Shown here: one piece after another, positions 1-46,102 of the stretch
Layout: every line of letters begins with the position of its first letter
Position numbering within the stretch: the stretch's first letter is position 1
Origin: Peptococcaceae bacterium BICA1-7
Lineage (GTDB): Bacteria; Bacillota; Desulfotomaculia; Desulfotomaculales; Desulfocucumaceae
Direction of reading: 5' to 3'
DNA: 64,000 nt
Assembly (NCBI GenBank): GCA_000802095.1
Contig: JUEB01000026.1
Span: 124,001 to 188,000 of the forward strand
Translations under genes and position numbers: made by a program
The notes under the pieces: generated by a model
Databases searched by the model: none
Told to the model about the DNA's origin: nothing
The model's input: only the letters and a program-made list of their open reading frames with translations

Positions 1-1
1 T

Positions 2-388
2 ATTCAATCATATATTTTCGATAATGCACCGGGTACAGTTCTGGTTCTTTTGGAAATTGAAAACAGCTGGTCCACCATTGATATAGATATAGAATGCTCT
101 GGCTTGCTGGAAACCTGTGTTTTTCTGGGGCTGTTGATATTCTACCCTTCCTTTGCCACTGGCAGGAGGATGTTTTTTCTTGTTTCAGGTATGGTAGGAA
201 TTTATGTAATTAATCTTGTCAGGCTTATTATTATAGTTTTAATTATGAGCTATTTCGGACGTGATTCCATTTTTATTGCTCATACTCTGTTCGGACGCAT
301 GATATTCTTTGGGCTATTAATTCTTATTTATTGGCTTATATTCACACGGGCGTCCCTTCTGATAATTAAGGAGCATAAAAATGATTGA
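2..388 (+). CDS. xrtG: Exosortase family protein XrtG, C-terminal part (5' end outside window)
   Basis: The reading frame is open from base 2, so the gene begins upstream of the window; the TTG at 50 is only an internal codon. The visible ~128 residues contain the three hallmarks of the exosortase/archaeosortase fold, each at or within a membrane helix: a Cys in IECSGLLE, an Arg in NLVRL and a His in AHTLFGR. At least three hydrophobic segments are visible. Exosortases are polytopic transpeptidases that process C-terminally tagged surface proteins; XrtG is the Gram-positive version and its substrate is poorly known. It overlaps the next glycosyltransferase gene by 8 bases, the pairing expected for XrtG. 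The base composition is AT-rich, unlike most of the window. Family assignment rests on motif and neighbour, not on a search. Confidence 0.75.
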   Translation: MQSYIFDNAPGTVLVLLEIENSWSTIDIDIECSGLLETCVFLGLLIFYPSFATGRRMFFLVSGMVGIYVINLVRLIIIVLIMSYFGRDSIFIAHTLFGRMIFFGLLILIYWLIFTRASLLIIKEHKND

Positions 389-1742
389 TATGTTTTTTGA
401 AAGGTTTATAAATTTTTTCTTTTTTTGGGGTGTATGGATGCTGGCCCCTCTAATGATAGATATTGTTACGGCCTTTATATATTTATTTACTATAATGATT
501 AACAGAAAAAAAGTAATTGATGTAGATCCGGTGGATAACCTAAGCTTTCTTCCAATTGTCTCACTGATCGTGCCTGTACATAATTCAGCAGATACACTGC
601 GAAAATGCCTTAAATCAATTGAAAGACAAAATTATCCGATAAATTTAATGCAGGTTATATGTGTAAATAACGGAAGCAACGATAAAAGCTTCCAGATTTT
701 TTCACAATTTCAGCAGGAGAGCCCCCTCAATGTTTCCTGGTCAGAATTGGACAGGACCGGTAAATCCATAGCCCTAAATGCAGGGCTTTACATCTGTGAG
801 GGGACATACATAATAAATGTGGACTCTGACTGCCACCTTGATAAAGATGCCGTACAGAATATGGTCAAAGCCTTTGAAAAAGAACCGGAAATGGTGGCGG
901 CCACCGGAGCAATACATATAGATAAGGAACTGGGAAAGGGCTACAATTTCATTGATATAGTCCATTACTGCGAGGCTATAGAATATGTTGTTGCCTTTAA
1001 TATTGGGAGACAGTATCAAACCCTGACAAATACACTTTTTACACTTTCAGGCGCTTTCTCTGCTTTTAGGAGAGATATTATACTAAATTCATTTCTTTAC
1101 TCAGAGACAACAGTTTCTGAGGATACAGAACTGACCTTTCATCTCAGAGAAAAAACTAAAGAAAATAAGGGCCAACTGGGCTGTGTTTCAAAGTCAATAG
1201 CCTATGTTGAGCCTATTACAAACATTTCAAAACTTTATTCGCAAAGGGTTCGCTGGCAGCGAGGACAAATTGAGGTGGCTTCGATGTATTCAAGCTCATC
1301 AAAAAATCCTTTGCAGGCGCTGAAGGCAATAGGAGGGAGAATACTGATTTCCGACCATACCCTTGCATTATCAAGGCTGACCTGGACCTTCCTCATACCC
1401 ATTCTTTATTTTTTCGGATATCCTCTGAACCTGGTTATGGCAGCCGTGCTGGGCATGCTGATCTGCTACTCAATGCTTGATCTTTTGTATTTAACAGTTG
1501 CTTACGCCGGATCGTCAATAGAGATAAGAAAAGGACTTAAAAAAATATGGTGGGTTGTTTTTTTCCTGCCTTTTTTCAGGTACCTGACTTACTGGTTCCG
1601 GTTCGCTGGCATAATACTCACCATGACAGAACCCGGAACCTGGAGAACTGAAAACCCATTTACACAAACAAAAAAAGCAATTAAGTCTAATATTTATTTT
1701 ATAAGAGAAAAATTATTGCAAAAGAAGGATATTTCCAGATAA
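381..1742 (+). CDS. XrtG-associated family 2 glycosyltransferase
   Basis: A 453-residue membrane-bound processive-type GT2 enzyme. An N-terminal membrane helix lies at about residues 12-40. The GT-A domain follows, with VPVHNSADTL near 65-73, the metal-binding D-S-D at 148-150, E-D at 247-248 and the Q-x-x-R-W signature at 288-292 (QRVRW). Several C-terminal membrane helices lie at about 325-410. This is the layout of cellulose/hyaluronan-synthase-like enzymes that polymerise and export a glycan from a nucleotide sugar. Its overlap with the exosortase gene matches the glycosyltransferase family that accompanies XrtG in other Gram-positives (family knowledge). The sugar is unknown. About 170 AT-rich non-coding bases follow before the next gene. 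Confidence 0.75.
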   Translation: MIDMFFERFINFFFFWGVWMLAPLMIDIVTAFIYLFTIMINRKKVIDVDPVDNLSFLPIVSLIVPVHNSADTLRKCLKSIERQNYPINLMQVICVNNGSNDKSFQIFSQFQQESPLNVSWSELDRTGKSIALNAGLYICEGTYIINVDSDCHLDKDAVQNMVKAFEKEPEMVAATGAIHIDKELGKGYNFIDIVHYCEAIEYVVAFNIGRQYQTLTNTLFTLSGAFSAFRRDIILNSFLYSETTVSEDTELTFHLREKTKENKGQLGCVSKSIAYVEPITNISKLYSQRVRWQRGQIEVASMYSSSSKNPLQALKAIGGRILISDHTLALSRLTWTFLIPILYFFGYPLNLVMAAVLGMLICYSMLDLLYLTVAYAGSSIEIRKGLKKIWWVVFFLPFFRYLTYWFRFAGIILTMTEPGTWRTENPFTQTKKAIKSNIYFIREKLLQKKDISR

Positions 1743-1915
1743 ATCTAATATTTTTTTAAAATTTAAAAAATTGTTATTCTGTATTGTGCTTAATAAAGCG
1801 CTTTTAATAGGTATCAAATATATAAAGGATTTTATTGTAACTTGATTGCAACCGGATAAAATTCTTAATGTAAATCTTTTTTGTATACAAAGCAATAATT
1901 TGGAGGGCTTTACTC

Positions 1916-2263
1916 TTGAAATACATATTACTTACTTTGCTATGCACTTTAATACTGTCTGTAGGGCAAATACTATGGAAAAAGGGTGTCTACGAAAAGA
2001 ATTTTGATACGGTTGGACAAGTAGTTCAAATATTATTCTCTGTACCGGTTATGATTGGAATTTTTTTATATGGAATGGCCACATTAATATGGCTATATGT
2101 ATTGTCTAAAAATGATATCAGTAGTGTATACCCTTTATTTGCGTTATCTTATTTTTTTGTAATGATATTATCGGCTGTTTTTTTTAATGAAAGAGTACAT
2201 TCAAGCAATATTTTCGGTGTACTTATAATTATTGTCGGGGTGTATATATGCACGAGAAGCTAA
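1916..2263 (+). CDS. Small multidrug-resistance/EamA-type membrane protein
   Basis: A 115-residue protein that is almost entirely four membrane helices, with the half-size EamA/SMR pattern: an N-terminal QILWKKG after helix 1, SVYPLFALSYF in helix 3 and NIFGVLIIIVGVY in helix 4. Such half-size transporters next to GT2 enzymes (compare ArnE/ArnF) often flip or translocate lipid-linked sugars; that role here is inference from context. The start is TTG, chosen because a GGAGGG ribosome site lies about 10 bases upstream. The 3' end overlaps the next glycosyltransferase gene by 16 bases, implying translational coupling. Confidence 0.65.
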   Translation: MKYILLTLLCTLILSVGQILWKKGVYEKNFDTVGQVVQILFSVPVMIGIFLYGMATLIWLYVLSKNDISSVYPLFALSYFFVMILSAVFFNERVHSSNIFGVLIIIVGVYICTRS

Positions 2264-2982
2264 GAAATATTAAGATATTGTTAATTATACCAGCTTATAA
2301 TGAAGAAAAGAATTTGCCCGATCTTTTGCAGAGGATAGAAGAATATACATCATGGCTGGATTTGATTGTTATTAACGATGGTTCAAAAGATAATACAATA
2401 GATGTATTAAGAGATTTTAATATAGAATTTATAGACCTTTCTGTAAATTTGGGTATTGGGGGCGCTGTTCAGGCTGGGTATAGGTATGCTGAAAAGAATG
2501 GTTATGATATAGCTATTCAATTTGATGGTGACGGACAACATCCACATCAAGACATAGTAAGTCTTGTAGAGGAAATTTTAAATGGATCAGATATGGTTAT
2601 TGGGTCAAGATACATTGAAAAAGAGGGATTTCAATCAACTATATTAAGAAGATTGGGTATTAGGTGCCTTTCTTTTTTAATAAAAATACTTACTGGTAAA
2701 AGTATTTCTGACCCGACATCGGGCTTTAGGGCTTGCAACAGAAACATTATAAAATATTTCGCCGAATATTACCCGCAGGATTATCCTGAGACTGAAACAA
2801 TAGTGCAGTTGATGCGCAGCAAATGGACAATTAATGAAATTCCGGTTCGCATGGTACCCCGGCAGAAGGGTGTTTCATCTATTAATTTACTGAAATCCAT
2901 ATATTATATGTTTAAAGTTACGCTTTCGATCATTATAGGAGTGACAGATGGAAAAGGAGGTGGCTTGAAGAAGTATGGATAA
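2248..2982 (+). CDS. Family 2 glycosyltransferase, dolichyl-phosphate-mannose-synthase-like
   Basis: A 244-residue GT-A fold enzyme. Visible motifs are LIIPAYNEEKN near residue 11, VINDGSKDN near 41, the metal-binding FDGDGQHP near 91 and the acceptor-site element DPTSGFRACN near 152. This is the DPM1/ArnC-like subgroup that transfers a sugar from a nucleotide donor to polyprenyl phosphate at the inner face of the membrane. It lacks a strong C-terminal membrane domain, so the EamA-like protein upstream and the DUF2304 protein downstream, which overlap it on both sides, may supply the membrane partners. Glycosyltransferase identity is firm; donor and acceptor are unknown. Confidence 0.8.
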   Translation: MHEKLRNIKILLIIPAYNEEKNLPDLLQRIEEYTSWLDLIVINDGSKDNTIDVLRDFNIEFIDLSVNLGIGGAVQAGYRYAEKNGYDIAIQFDGDGQHPHQDIVSLVEEILNGSDMVIGSRYIEKEGFQSTILRRLGIRCLSFLIKILTGKSISDPTSGFRACNRNIIKYFAEYYPQDYPETETIVQLMRSKWTINEIPVRMVPRQKGVSSINLLKSIYYMFKVTLSIIIGVTDGKGGGLKKYG

Positions 2983-3331
2983 CCGCTTGCAATTATTTTT
3001 AATATTTGGTACTTTATTTACTTTTATTATCATAATTAGAATGATTCAAAAGCGCAATTTAAATATTAAATATATCACAATATGGATGATGTCAGGTTTA
3101 TTCCTCTTAATACTGGCATTATTTCCTCAAATAGCAGTAGTAATGGCTCATTTTGCGGGTATAGAAGTTGCTTCTAATGGTGTTTTTCTGGCCATGATTG
3201 TATTCTTATATATGATATGTTTTAGTTATGCTGTTGCATTATCACACAATTCAGAACAGCTAAAAACGATCGTACAGGAAGTTGCCATTTTAAAAAAAAG
3301 TATTAGAGACTTAGAAGAAAGAAATAAATAA
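2975..3331 (+). CDS. DUF2304-family membrane protein
   Basis: 118 residues. Three hydrophobic helices (about 5-22, 32-52 and 65-88) are followed by a charged, coiled-coil-like tail (LKTIVQEVAILKKSIRDLEER). This size and pattern match DUF2304 proteins, which are found directly beside DPM1-like glycosyltransferases. The gene overlaps the preceding glycosyltransferase by 8 bases. Its function is not established; a scaffolding or accessory role for the membrane glycosyltransferase is inference. Confidence 0.65.
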   Translation: MDNRLQLFLIFGTLFTFIIIIRMIQKRNLNIKYITIWMMSGLFLLILALFPQIAVVMAHFAGIEVASNGVFLAMIVFLYMICFSYAVALSHNSEQLKTIVQEVAILKKSIRDLEERNK

Positions 3332-3378
3332 ATGGCATGAGGGCGTATATAAAGGAGAGATACCGAGAAGGTATTTAT

Positions 3379-4536
3379 ATGATAATAAGGAATTGTATAA
3401 TTGTTTTAATTTTATTTTTTTTAACAATCAGTTTTAGTGAAGTTTCCGAAGCCAATAATGGTATCTCTATTATTTTAAATGATCAAAAATTAATTTTTGA
3501 TCAGCCCCCTGTAATTGAAGACGGCACAGTGCTGGTACCGATGAGAGCTTTGTTAGAAAAATTTAATATGGCTATAGAGTATGATAGTAATAGCGAAACA
3601 GTTACCGCAAAGAATAAAAACACAACTATTATTGTGACTATAAACTCAAAAATAGCTCTTATAAATAATAACACTAAAAAGTTAAGAGTTGCCCCCAGAA
3701 TTATTAACTCCAGGACTATGGTGCCCATTCGTTTTATCAGTGAAGCGCTTGGTGACGAAGTGGTATGGCACGAAGATATAAAAACGGTTAATATTACCAA
3801 CAAGGATTATGCTCTCCCCATTTTTATATATCACTGGGTTGTAAAAGAAGGTGAGGGTAAGGGGGGGACCCCTTTATCCAAGTTCCGGGAACAACTGGAT
3901 TATTTGCAGTCTAGTGGTTTCGAAACTGTGACCCCTGATGATGTTTACGACTGGCTTAGTGGCAAAAAAATACTTGGACCCAGGTCCTGTATGATTACCT
4001 TTGATGATGGGAACCTGTCGGTATATACACTGGCATTTCAGGAAGTAAAAAAAAGAAAAATGAAAATGACATTGTACATTAATCCTTCCTGGATGGATAA
4101 CCAAATGACCGACGTCTTCAGGCAAGGTCAGGAAGGCTATCATTTTAATTGGGAACAGGCGAGGGAAATGGTTGATTCCGGACTTGTAAACATACAGAAT
4201 CATACTTATTCACATCAGCAGCTAGATTTGTTAAGCAAAGAAGAACAGAAAATTGAGATAGTAAAAGCCCAGGAACGTATAAAAGAAATGTTGGGATATA
4301 CACCGTACCATCTGGCTTATCCTTACGGGTCCTATAATCAAGACACACTGGAATTGTGCAGGGAACTGGGAGTACATACCGCTGTTACAGTTAAAAATTC
4401 AATTGCTGAAAGTAAACAGGGTCCGTGGGAATTAAAAAGAATTAGCTATATCCCGGTTGATAAAATCTTTCGCTCTACTGAAAAAAAAATAAATTTCCAA
4501 ATTGAGGAGTATACATGTCTAAAAGAAAATTTATAA
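3379..4536 (+). CDS. Secreted polysaccharide deacetylase with copper-amine-oxidase-type N-terminal domain
   Basis: The ATG at 3379 is preferred over an in-frame ATG at 3337. It has a GAAGG site 7 bases upstream and begins a clean signal peptide (basic start, long hydrophobic run, cleavage region near SEVSEA). The mature protein has a CuAO-N1-type substrate/wall-binding domain at about residues 30-140, with the repeated signatures VLVPMRAL and TMVPIRFISEALG. A NodB deacetylase domain occupies about 150-370. Metal-site motifs are visible: TFDDGN (Asp-Asp) and NHTYSHQQ (His-x3-His), plus AYPYG later. It should remove acetyl groups from cell wall or exopolysaccharide outside the cell. It closes the AT-rich glycan cluster. 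Confidence 0.8.
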   Translation: MIIRNCIIVLILFFLTISFSEVSEANNGISIILNDQKLIFDQPPVIEDGTVLVPMRALLEKFNMAIEYDSNSETVTAKNKNTTIIVTINSKIALINNNTKKLRVAPRIINSRTMVPIRFISEALGDEVVWHEDIKTVNITNKDYALPIFIYHWVVKEGEGKGGTPLSKFREQLDYLQSSGFETVTPDDVYDWLSGKKILGPRSCMITFDDGNLSVYTLAFQEVKKRKMKMTLYINPSWMDNQMTDVFRQGQEGYHFNWEQAREMVDSGLVNIQNHTYSHQQLDLLSKEEQKIEIVKAQERIKEMLGYTPYHLAYPYGSYNQDTLELCRELGVHTAVTVKNSIAESKQGPWELKRISYIPVDKIFRSTEKKINFQIEEYTCLKENL

Positions 4537-5177
4537 CAGCATTTTTTATAATTTTGACGGCTCTTTTTTTCTTTATCTTAGTTGTCAATGGTAAGGTTAC
4601 TAATACTGGTAATAAATACATTATCAGCTCTGAAGCGCTTAACACCTGCCAGGCCGCCATTGTCCCCGGGGCATACGTGTCTCCTGACGGAAGGCTGTGT
4701 GATATGCTGGCGGACAGGGTAATTACCGCAGTGGATTTGTACAGGGCTGGAAAGGTGAAAAAAATATTGATGACCGGAGACCACGGTAGAGCCTCCTACG
4801 ACGAGGTGAACAGCATGAGGAGATTTGCCGAGGAAATGGGGGTTCCTACAGGGGACATATTTATGGACCATGCGGGCTTCTCAACGTATGAAAGTATGTA
4901 CCGGTCCAGGGATGTATTCAAGGTGGATTCCGCCGTGATTGTCACCCAGGATTTTCATCTGCCCAGGGCGGTTTACATTGCCCGGGAACTCGGTATAGAT
5001 GCCGTGGGGATAAGCGCCGACAGGCATATTTACGCCGGGGCCGGGGTGTATGGATACCGGGAAATTCCGGCCCGTGTAAAGGCCTTTATACAGGTTGAAG
5101 CTGGCGCCAGGCCCACATTTCTTGGCCCGGCTATCCCGGTAAGCGGAGACGGACGGGCGACACATGATAAGCCCTGA
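4515..5177 (+). CDS. SanA/YdcF-family (DUF218) membrane-anchored protein
   Basis: 220 residues with one N-terminal membrane anchor (about 7-25), then a DUF218 domain. Family landmarks are a GAYV strand after the anchor, MLADRVITAVDLYRAG, KKILMTGDHG, a central STYESM and VTQDFHLPRAVYIA. SanA-type proteins act at the cell envelope and affect peptidoglycan or barrier function; their chemistry is unclear. The start overlaps the deacetylase gene by 22 bases. Base composition changes inside this gene: the first ~100 bases are AT-rich like the upstream cluster, the rest is GC-rich like the downstream genome. Confidence 0.75.
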   Translation: MSKRKFITAFFIILTALFFFILVVNGKVTNTGNKYIISSEALNTCQAAIVPGAYVSPDGRLCDMLADRVITAVDLYRAGKVKKILMTGDHGRASYDEVNSMRRFAEEMGVPTGDIFMDHAGFSTYESMYRSRDVFKVDSAVIVTQDFHLPRAVYIARELGIDAVGISADRHIYAGAGVYGYREIPARVKAFIQVEAGARPTFLGPAIPVSGDGRATHDKP

Positions 5178-44199: not shown

Positions 44200-45066
44200 A
44201 TGAACACTCAGGATACGGAAATCCACCTCTTCCTAAAGGGGCTTGTGGAAGGCGTCCTTTTACTAAGAATACCCAAACTTGAAAATCTCCTGAGAGATGC
44301 AGGTTTTACCGTGCCCCCCCGTCCGGCCACTAAAACCCTGCAGGGTAAACCGGGGGTGGGGCAGGAAGTTAAATTGTCAGATGAAGAAGTATTGAAGGTT
44401 ATGCTGACCTTATCCCACGCTTTATTGGTTCTTGACGCAAGAGGGGTGGGGACTGCCACCACCAATGAAGCTATCCGTGGAGTTTTTGTTGACCTTCTCA
44501 AAAAAACTATCATGGCCCATGATGGTTTGATGCTATTGGGAAGCGGAAGGCAGGCCTTTACCCCGGCCCCTCCCGCTACTGCATCGCCCGGCGCCCTGAA
44601 TCTGGGGGAAGTTTATTTGCTATGGGACCAACTGGGTTTCAGACATTCCACTATTGTCCTCCTTGAAACCTATATCAATAACACTAAAGATGTGGAATTA
44701 AAAAAGGAACTGGATTATGGTTTGCACAAAGTAGCCTTTCCCCAATTGGAAAAAATTGAGATGACCCTAAAGAACGAAGGCTTTACCGTCCCGGCCCGCC
44801 CTGTCTCCAGGATGAGACAGCAGCCTGCCGGAAGGATCGGAAAAATCATCTTAAGGGACAGTGAAATACTCAGTATTGTGATTACAGCTACCCAGGTAGC
44901 TTTGGATTTGCACGTGAATTCCCTGGGTTCCAGCTACCGCGGAGATATCAGGGAACTTATAAAGAGTTTTGTTTTTGAGGAAATAGACTATTTGGTGAAA
45001 CTGATAAAGCTGGGTAATAAGCGAAATCTCATGGAATTGCCTCCAAACGTTACAGCAAAAGTTTGA
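44200..45066 (+). CDS. DUF3231-like protein, two tandem helical repeats, copy 1
   Basis: 288 residues from ATG 44200. Two similar halves each contain an L-W-[DE]-x-L element, a helical stretch, DAGFTVPPRP or NEGFTVPARP, and a ferritin-like helix pair. The frame stays open upstream to about 44089 and encodes a matching first element (GEIFCLWDALTASYQIIN), but that extension has no ATG, GTG or TTG. The true N-terminus is therefore unclear; it may be truncated or use a rare start. The DUF3231 assignment rests on pattern recognition. The gene is followed 17 bases later by the second copy's first frame, so both are co-transcribed. Confidence 0.55.
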   Translation: MNTQDTEIHLFLKGLVEGVLLLRIPKLENLLRDAGFTVPPRPATKTLQGKPGVGQEVKLSDEEVLKVMLTLSHALLVLDARGVGTATTNEAIRGVFVDLLKKTIMAHDGLMLLGSGRQAFTPAPPATASPGALNLGEVYLLWDQLGFRHSTIVLLETYINNTKDVELKKELDYGLHKVAFPQLEKIEMTLKNEGFTVPARPVSRMRQQPAGRIGKIILRDSEILSIVITATQVALDLHVNSLGSSYRGDIRELIKSFVFEEIDYLVKLIKLGNKRNLMELPPNVTAKV

Positions 45067-45083
45067 GAAGGAGTGGTAAAAAT

Positions 45084-45233
45084 ATGCAGCTTAAAATTTT
45101 GAAAAAAATACTACCGGCATCCTATACCCTGAACACCGCCCAAAAACCTATGCACTCGGGGGAAATATATCATCTTTGGGAATCCCTGACCGCTTCTCAC
45201 CAGTTGATAAATTCTCTTGAAACTTTCAAATGA
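45084..45233 (+). pseudogene. N-terminal fragment of the second DUF3231-like gene, separated by a frameshift
   Basis: A 49-codon frame with a good ribosome site (GAAGGAG about 10 bases before the ATG). Its product contains HSGEIYHLWESLTASHQLIN, clearly homologous to the first element of copy 1. It stops at TGA in ATGA, overlapping the ATG of the next frame by four bases. Copy 1 reads through this point in one frame. So it is either a frameshift-inactivated gene, two coupled proteins, or a programmed frameshift. Confidence 0.55.
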
Positions 45234-46102
45234 ATACTGACGATAAAGGAATGCATCAGCTTATACAGGTTTTAGCAACCAGTATAAGAAAACAACGCAT
45301 CCCCAAACTGGAAGGTCTTCTCAAAGATGCCGGTTTTACAGTCCCACCCCGATCTGCTTCCAAAACACTCCAGGGAAAGCCGGGGGTTGGCACTGAAGTC
45401 ATACTTTCCGATGAGGAAATCATCAAAGTTATGTTAAACTTATCAGGCGCTTTGATCAATCTTGACGGGCGGGCCATAGCCACTGTCACAACAGAAGAGT
45501 CTATCAGAGATTTGTTTATTGCACTTTTTAAACAAGATATGAAGGAACACGAAGCTATAATTTCTCTCGGAAAGAGCAGGCAGTCCTTTACCCAGCCCCC
45601 TTTGTCAGTGTCCGAACCCAATGGGCCTACCATAGGTGATGCTTACTGGCTCTGGGTTGAAATGGAATTCTACAGGAGTTCCAGTATTATCCTGCTGGAA
45701 TCCTATTTAAACAACACTAATGACAAAGAGCTTAAAAAGCTCCTGGAACATGGCCTGTATAAGATCGCCTATCCCCAGTTAAATAAGCTTGAACAGACTT
45801 TAAAAGCCACTGGATTTACAGTGCCGCCCCGACCGGTATCCAGGATGCATCAGCGGCCTCCCGGGGTAATTGGCCAAATCACTTTATCCGACAGCGAAGT
45901 TGCCAATGTCATAATAACAGCCAGTCAATTTCTTTTAAACCAGCATATCAGGGCATACAGCGCTACCTTTAAAGACCAATACAGGGCAATTTTCAAAGGG
46001 TTCATAATGGAAGAAATAGACAACATTAAAAAGCTCTACAGTCTTGGAAAAACCAGAAATCTCATACTAACTCCTCCTCAAGTCACGTCTAAGAAGGGTT
46101 AG
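45230..46102 (+). CDS. DUF3231-like protein, copy 2 (main frame)
   Basis: 290 residues, co-linear with copy 1 over its full length: DAGFTVPPRSASKTLQGKPGVG matches DAGFTVPPRPATKTLQGKPGVG, and both halves are retained (second half from about YWLWVEMEFYRSSSIILLES). It begins at the ATGA overlap with the short frame upstream. Tandem duplication of the gene is evident; divergence is substantial, so the duplication is old. Function unknown; ferritin-like helical proteins of this family occur in spore formers. Confidence 0.55.
   Translation: MNTDDKGMHQLIQVLATSIRKQRIPKLEGLLKDAGFTVPPRSASKTLQGKPGVGTEVILSDEEIIKVMLNLSGALINLDGRAIATVTTEESIRDLFIALFKQDMKEHEAIISLGKSRQSFTQPPLSVSEPNGPTIGDAYWLWVEMEFYRSSSIILLESYLNNTNDKELKKLLEHGLYKIAYPQLNKLEQTLKATGFTVPPRPVSRMHQRPPGVIGQITLSDSEVANVIITASQFLLNQHIRAYSATFKDQYRAIFKGFIMEEIDNIKKLYSLGKTRNLILTPPQVTSKKG

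Follow-up and report, generated by a model that had tools for sequence, protein, structure and literature searches.

A candidate exosortase G module in Peptococcaceae bacterium BICA1-7 and a related clade in which target and exosortase are fused and the catalytic cysteine is absent

For exosortase G (XrtG), NCBIfam provides a model of its partner target, Firmicu-CTERM (TIGR04145), and PMC12854382 describes Firmicu-CTERM, XrtG and two glycosyltransferases (GTs) as a complete XrtG system. For archaeosortase A (ArtA), published accounts give Cys-173 as an active-site residue, with a thioester intermediate proposed (PMC7157517), report that the enzyme is able to act on signals inside a protein (PMC11980579), and couple cleavage to lipid synthesis (PMC7157517, PMC11980579). 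Here, we analyze an xrtG gene and its surroundings at the left edge of a stretch of 64,000 nucleotides from Peptococcaceae bacterium BICA1-7 (assembly GCA_000802095.1, contig JUEB01000026.1). We call this stretch the window; it is G000:C26 124001-188000 in our numbering, and a window position is the contig position minus 124000. An earlier reading of the letters, made without database searches (the sequence-only reading), held that XrtG has no firmly known substrate. The TIGR04145 model and the system described in PMC12854382 speak otherwise, and a candidate target lies just outside the window.

We propose that the locus forms a dedicated exosortase G module, carried by a probably acquired island, where XrtG would cut the target encoded beside it, and that in a sister clade, where the target domain is fused to XrtG, the enzyme no longer cuts and the fusion tethers the target domain. 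We give this reading a probability of roughly 0.67. The genes at its center are the following.

Contig 119544-122990 (L004:5544-8990), + strand: PTPS membrane protein, 1148 aa, with a TIGR03112/PTPS domain and a PF10131 membrane domain.
Contig 122971-123810 (L004:8971-9810), + strand: candidate XrtG target, 261-279 aa, upstream of xrtG and overlapping it.
Window 1-388, + strand: XrtG exosortase, cut by the window start; TIGR03110 and active-site residues.
Window 381-1742, + strand: XrtG-associated GT2 glycosyltransferase; TIGR03111, with the DxD, ED and QxxRW residues retained.

The window holds XrtG from about residue 67 on, and even this truncated piece scores 103 bits against TIGR03110 (cut-off 102.75). 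The full product has 194 aa (contig 123804-124388), scores 115.3 bits, is the only TIGR03110 match in its genome, and has its active-site positions filled by Cys98, Arg140 and His160, just as the sequence-only reading recognized an exosortase by its Cys, Arg and His motifs. A sequence search of XrtG against solved structures gave no match. The partner GT scores 396.9 bits against TIGR03111 (cut-off 363.95), and the PTPS membrane protein 80.7 bits against TIGR03112, above the cut-off. The PTPS-related domain of this protein (L004:5544-8990) keeps a His and an H-x-H pair; it may be non-catalytic, because it has no Cys at what we take to be the Cys position of QueD-type enzymes.

The sequence-only reading saw no target in the window, and indeed the candidate ends 190 bases to the left of it, overlapping the start of xrtG by 7 bases; extending the view leftward, as that reading advised, recovers the xrtG start together with the genes for the target and for the PTPS membrane protein of 1148 aa. 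The target gene apparently starts with CTG. This codon lies at contig 122971 (L004:8971), or 1029 bases to the left of window position 0; a Shine-Dalgarno-like sequence, AGGGTGAGGAGG, precedes it, and a start there gives the protein a signal peptide ending in AVA. A gene caller limited to ATG, GTG and TTG shortens the gene and removes that signal peptide. The C terminus reads DIQWAPVP, a hydrophobic helix, and RSVKKREKC, which is the tripartite form of an exosortase signal (short Pro motif, helix, basic tail), and in the alignment this tail is kept across nine relatives with a separate target. The protein is a secreted-looking beta-sandwich protein and a likely XrtG substrate.

When XrtG loci are compared, 16 of 36 have target and XrtG in one open reading frame (ORF) and 20 have them apart, and the catalytic Cys is absent in all 16 fused loci and kept in all 20 separate ones. 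In the fused proteins, the target domain runs straight into XrtG without the tail of its own. The 15 fused rows of our trees have Asn (10), Ser (4, including L046) or His (1) at the Cys site, and L085, the second fused copy in genome G516, has Asn. The trees omit L085 and the broken separate locus L041, in which the Cys is present, and they exclude the Cys column itself. All 15 fused rows form one clade (support 100/100 with XrtG and GT together, 96/93 with XrtG alone), nested among Cys-bearing separate forms, with the BICA1-7 gene among the nearest separate branches. At least 4 changes among Ser, Asn and His have taken place at the Cys site within this clade, and across the whole tree there are none at E97, N137, R140, H160 or R165. 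Sixteen columns are identical in the 19 separate rows, and 13 of them are unchanged in the fused rows; of the three that change, C98 is kept in 0 of 15, F180 in 3 of 14 and G129 in 13 of 15.

For the XrtG domain of fused proteins, five pairs give a ratio of nonsynonymous to synonymous substitution rates (dN/dS) of 0.08-0.14 and one more pair is saturated; for separate XrtG, two pairs give 0.08 and 0.12 and the third is saturated. These pairs have rows in common and cannot be taken as independent. The GT keeps its motif residues in 13 fused and 19 separate rows, one gap row excepted. On the other side of the target domain, our script finds an A-x-A-like site immediately ahead of the domain in 8 of the 9 separate targets read, the ninth being the BICA1-7 target, whose AVA, seen by eye, lies further upstream; among fused rows, 1 of the 14 that are readable (L013) has such a site, and L014, with SWAG, would be admitted by a less strict rule. 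This is a count of motifs and not the output of a signal-peptide predictor, and it covers 9 of the 20 separate and 14 of the 16 fused loci. As the site is nearly gone in the fused rows, most fused proteins would be tethered at both ends. Taken at the level of these alignments, the fused form seems to be an exosortase under selection that lacks the cysteine and is tethered to what used to be its substrate. A literature search by titles and starts of abstracts, with most subscription papers outside it, returned no Cys-less or substrate-fused exosortase, and in the same search PMC12854382 was alone in naming XrtG or Firmicu-CTERM.

The loci come from several searches. With TIGR03110 at E ≤ 0.001, we find matches in 7 of 113 genomes of the order, 13 of 398 drawn from the phylum, 14 of 63 of the order of G127, 4 of 10 of the order of G240, 8 of 344 of the order of G328, and 1 of 3 of the class of G226; these genome sets overlap. 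A first scan of genome contigs with the BICA1-7 XrtG alone returned no relative, and a scan with alignment A1 returned 18 loci, of which L046 and L059 were new and the others repeats counted once. Because the A1 pattern admitted N, S or C at the Cys site, loci with another residue there could escape it; the TIGR03110 searches are free of this pattern and cover 34 of the 36 loci (all except L046 and L059). Removal of repeats left 39 loci, 36 of them with XrtG, and L018, L030 and L077 were dropped as weak matches that are not XrtG.

Gene content was counted with phmmer at E ≤ 1e-5 using the BICA1-7 proteins, in 36 loci, many of them truncated at the end of a contig. Matches to the PTPS protein occur in 32, to the GT in 34 and to a target of the BICA1-7 type in 29; in the seven classical loci, an ORF whose product has a hydrophobic tail at its C terminus lies upstream. 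Wherever the upstream side of a locus is readable, the target is adjacent to XrtG or fused to it, and L082, a separate form, has just a 127-aa target piece in frame. The target domain is found in 25 of 25 listed XrtG-holding genomes, once in 22 of them; G516 has two fusion copies, and in G055 and G537 the domain is split between two contigs. The search profile (A4) was made from separate targets and includes some of the sequences searched, and the classical genomes, G123 and others are outside the list.

Some loci are organized differently. In the metagenome-assembled genome that holds L015, a single case, a 1539-aa ORF (L015:9591-14210, minus strand) joins the PTPS membrane protein, the target domain and a Cys-less XrtG. 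In Desulforamulus putei, a reverse-transcriptase ORF (L017:8317-9495; RVT_1, 87.6 bits) stands upstream of what remains of the fused gene, and a different contig, G055:C48, carries the N-terminal half of the target; we counted L017 as fused, since the remaining part reads from target into XrtG. And in L032, L038, L039 and L040, the PTPS membrane protein and the target share one ORF beside a Cys-bearing XrtG, with a signal-peptidase-like site (ALA, VLA or AFA) at the junction and the C-terminal tail intact. We considered these PTPS-target fusions as a sign that anchoring is irrelevant, and dropped the idea because of the site at each junction.

Predicted structures bear on what the target domain might do. 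AlphaFold2 models have a mean predicted local distance difference test score (pLDDT) of 82.5 for the fused protein of L013 and 78.6 for the BICA1-7 target, and as modeled the ectodomain is a beta sandwich. In a second look at structural matches, the BICA1-7 ectodomain is closest to glucodextranase 1ug9 (Z 10.0) and 4jpq (Z 9.7), and the fused-protein ectodomain to Sas6 7uww (Z 10.9) and 4jpq (Z 9.7), with the next unrelated rows at 7.6 and 7.0. Identities are 17-18% (1ug9, 7uww) and 4-5% (4jpq, a putative carbohydrate-binding protein). With Foldseek, neither model had a match at E ≤ 0.001, the best E-values being 0.021-0.025, to other chains; a sequence search of the target against solved structures gave a single weak match (3qnk, E 0.045); and a Pfam search of the target domain, for which a CBM9/DOMON-like fold was considered, gave no carbohydrate-binding module, only sub-threshold matches to FG-GAP and others. 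Judging from the models, a carbohydrate-binding role of the ectodomain is plausible. Concerning the enzyme, a hydropathy scan combined with positive-inside reasoning is compatible with an XrtG N terminus on the outside, a topology in which an exported domain could be joined directly to XrtG.

The mechanism that we propose has two forms. In the Cys form, the target would be exported by Sec and held by its C-terminal helix; XrtG, with Cys98, Arg140 and His160, would cut it at or near DIQWxPxP through a thioester, a step modeled on ArtA; and an outer-leaflet acceptor, plausibly a product of the neighboring GT and PTPS membrane protein, would then receive the cut target. We infer the export, the cleavage and the acceptor from ArtA (PMC7157517) and from the overview given in PMC11980579, and the attachment of the target to a glycan is an inference too. 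In the fused form there would be no cutting. The target domain would be permanently tethered and XrtG would keep a binding or scaffold role, possibly with a carbohydrate-binding domain held at the XrtG/GT complex, so that fusion would reach the same useful end state.

The surroundings of the module contain these further features.

Contig 119020-119442 (L004:5020-5442), + strand: coiled-coil protein, 140 aa, an island gene outside the window.
Window 1916-2263, + strand: EamA/ArnE-ArnF-like small transporter; PF00892 above cut-off, ArnE/ArnF models below theirs.
Window 2248-2982, + strand: DPM1-like glycosyltransferase (GT2), from family profile searches.
Window 2975-3331, + strand: DUF2304 membrane protein, PF10066 profile.
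Window 3337-4536, + strand: polysaccharide deacetylase with a copper-amine-oxidase-N domain, an AT-rich island gene by profiles and GC.
Window 4515-5177, + strand: SanA-like DUF218 protein of the host backbone, outside the module; GC 0.50, 78% identical to a G027 protein.
Contig about 118777-128515 (window part 1-4515): AT-rich island between spoIIM and sanA, from GC contrast and comparison with G027.

The gene order on one strand, with overlaps, that the sequence-only reading described agrees with the ORF coordinates from 1 to 5177, and its family assignments (partner glycosyltransferase, EamA-like, DPM1-like, DUF2304, deacetylase, SanA) are upheld by profile matches above the cut-offs, PF00892, PF00535, PF10066, PF01522, PF07833 and PF02698 among them. 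What the locus comparison does not support is the view of these genes as a nearly complete lipid-linked glycan set belonging to the XrtG system. EamA matches occur in 10 of the 36 loci, DPM1-like matches in 16 (GT2 cross-matches are possible) and DUF2304 in 2; the deacetylase has a strong match at its own locus only, with weak ones in L045 and in L088, which ends at a contig end; SanA has a match only at its own locus. The coiled-coil protein has matches in 12 loci, its own included. Elsewhere in the window, at 44200-46102, two neighboring ORFs, 288 and 290 aa long, resemble each other; both show an internal repeat by eye, and they lie in a stretch of lower GC.

The AT-richness of the first ~4.6 kb, taken by the sequence-only reading as a mark of foreign DNA, is borne out by binned GC. 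In eleven 1-kb bins the cluster has a GC of 0.332-0.430, compared with 0.486 ± 0.039 for the remaining 73 bins of this 84-kb region, of which 1 is below 0.40; by gene, GC is 0.29-0.44 from the coiled-coil gene through the deacetylase, compared with 0.498 ± 0.037 in 51 background genes. The sanA gene, at 0.50, is host-like, and therefore the composition boundary is the deacetylase/SanA border, at ~4.5 kb, and SanA is host backbone. To the left, AT-richness extends beyond the window edge, and the island starts ~5.2 kb left of the window. The distance between spoIIM and sanA is 9.8 kb here and 206 bp (between tblastn ends) in G027 of the same genus (locus L129), where sanA, its product 78% identical, sits next to spoIIM without the island, the flanks are 82-89% identical in DNA, and a TIGR03110 search finds no XrtG. 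In G026, also of the genus, the fused XrtG form is on a different contig than spoIIM, and the next backbone gene follows spoIIM after ~1 kb in which sanA has no match. The best matches to DPM1, EamA and DUF2304 among the other loci (245, 77 and 57 bits) are all in L051, of Syntrophomonas palmitatica. Because of the sharp composition boundary, the short gap in G027, the other contig in G026 and these matches in L051, we consider the island probably acquired; it ends where the sequence-only reading saw the composition change.

How well does the proposal hold? Several observations weigh against it, and some of them favor other explanations. Because the fused rows form one clade nested in Cys-bearing forms, the loss of the Cys is, on these trees, a single evolutionary event and not a repeated correlation, and F180 is altered in that clade (3 of 14 rows retain it). 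Moreover, an internal tripartite signal of a kind could persist in the fused proteins, where the junction keeps DIQWxPFP, followed by the first hydrophobic helix of XrtG and basic residues. With Arg and His invariant, Ser at the Cys site in 4 of 15 rows, and a Cys at position 105 in 14 of 15 (absent in L046) that could in principle act, the fused proteins might still cut, through Ser or another residue, and release their own target domain, and PMC11980579 has ArtA processing some signals inside a protein. We consider this unlikely, although it deserves to be taken seriously: Asn (10 of 15) and His (1 of 15) do not substitute well for a nucleophile, the helix and the C-terminal basic tail of the target are gone, and L046 has neither Cys98 nor Cys105. 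It is far harder to believe that the fused form, lacking the Cys, is nonfunctional and in decay. The reverse-transcriptase ORF that interrupts L017 would fit decay, and among the separate forms, too, there is a broken locus, L041; dN/dS of 0.08-0.14, active-site neighbors that are invariant over 15 rows, and the intact GT motif residues of the fused clade argue against it.

The other doubts concern the target and the island. The BICA1-7 target has no match to TIGR04145 (cut-off 50 bits), and a search of the whole genome with that model at E ≤ 10 gave a sole match elsewhere, on contig C2, at 13.4 bits and below the cut-off; the search for sorting-motif proteins that the sequence-only reading had called for thus yields the tripartite-tail target beside xrtG but, from TIGR04145, just that one match. 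A comparison of the profiles of BICA1-7-type and classical targets aligned only 16 columns, around LDGxFxDW. The model scores 116 bits on the classical target of L031 and 114 on that of L089, has no match on the classical target of L094, gives sub-threshold matches in L035 (19.4 bits), L032 (19.2) and the fused L034 (15.9), and has none on L051 and the fused L016, L014 and L046. The sub-threshold matches together with the LDGxFxDW motif suggest a distant kinship of the two types. Could the target domain be a mere neighbor of XrtG, with the true substrates elsewhere in the genome? The miss by the Firmicu-CTERM model leaves room for it, as does our search of the genome for further targets, which was by homology and not by every C-terminal tail. 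We think it improbable, given the 7-base overlap of target and xrtG, the adjacency or fusion at every locus readable on the upstream side (L082 with its 127-aa in-frame piece), and the single occurrence of the target domain in 22 of the 25 genomes searched, the other three having a second fused copy or pieces split between contigs. We are similarly skeptical that the AT-rich stretch was not acquired and is instead lost in G027. The short spoIIM-sanA gap is seen in only one same-genus genome, and the ~1 kb without a sanA match after spoIIM in G026 is compatible with loss; but the contrast in composition with the host is sharp, whereas in ten relatives checked the composition of XrtG and GT matches the surroundings, and the fused form of G026 is on another contig than its spoIIM.

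The reading of a cutting enzyme with one dedicated target, and of a fused clade that no longer cuts, matters because what exosortases attach their targets to is an unsettled question. The fused clade lacks both the nucleophile and the tail of the target, and usually the leader-cleavage-like site along with them, yet it keeps the rest of the active site and the GT, which would separate cutting from the remaining function. Both forms are present within one genus (G000 separate, G026 fused) and, going by record names, within Syntrophomonas (L051 separate, L037 and L058 fused), and therefore what the cut achieves is open to a direct test. A more tentative thought is that XrtG has a non-proteolytic role, holding or presenting a lipid or glycan in a membrane glycan-synthase complex; cutting would then only fix the glycan-binding domain to the product or acceptor, and a fusion without a nucleophile could replace the cut. 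If so, the fused clade would consist of pseudo-exosortases, each carrying its own former substrate.

Compared with carbohydrate-related beta-sandwich domains (1ug9, 7uww, 4jpq), the modeled ectodomains are alike at Z 9.7-10.9, but identity is low (17-18% and 4-5%) and Foldseek E-values are weak. With PEP-CTERM/exosortase systems and archaeosortase A (PGF-CTERM), the locus shares a tripartite C-terminal signal and an active-site Cys, and it differs from them in having one target beside one enzyme, with glycosyltransferase partner genes. Closest is the XrtG/Firmicu-CTERM system, for example that of Lactiplantibacillus plantarum as given in PMC12854382, which likewise has XrtG, a TIGR03111 GT, a TIGR03112 PTPS-related domain and a target just upstream. 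In contrast to that system, the target here is too divergent for TIGR04145, EamA, DPM1, DUF2304 and deacetylase genes lie downstream, and there is a sister clade with Cys-less fusions of target and XrtG.

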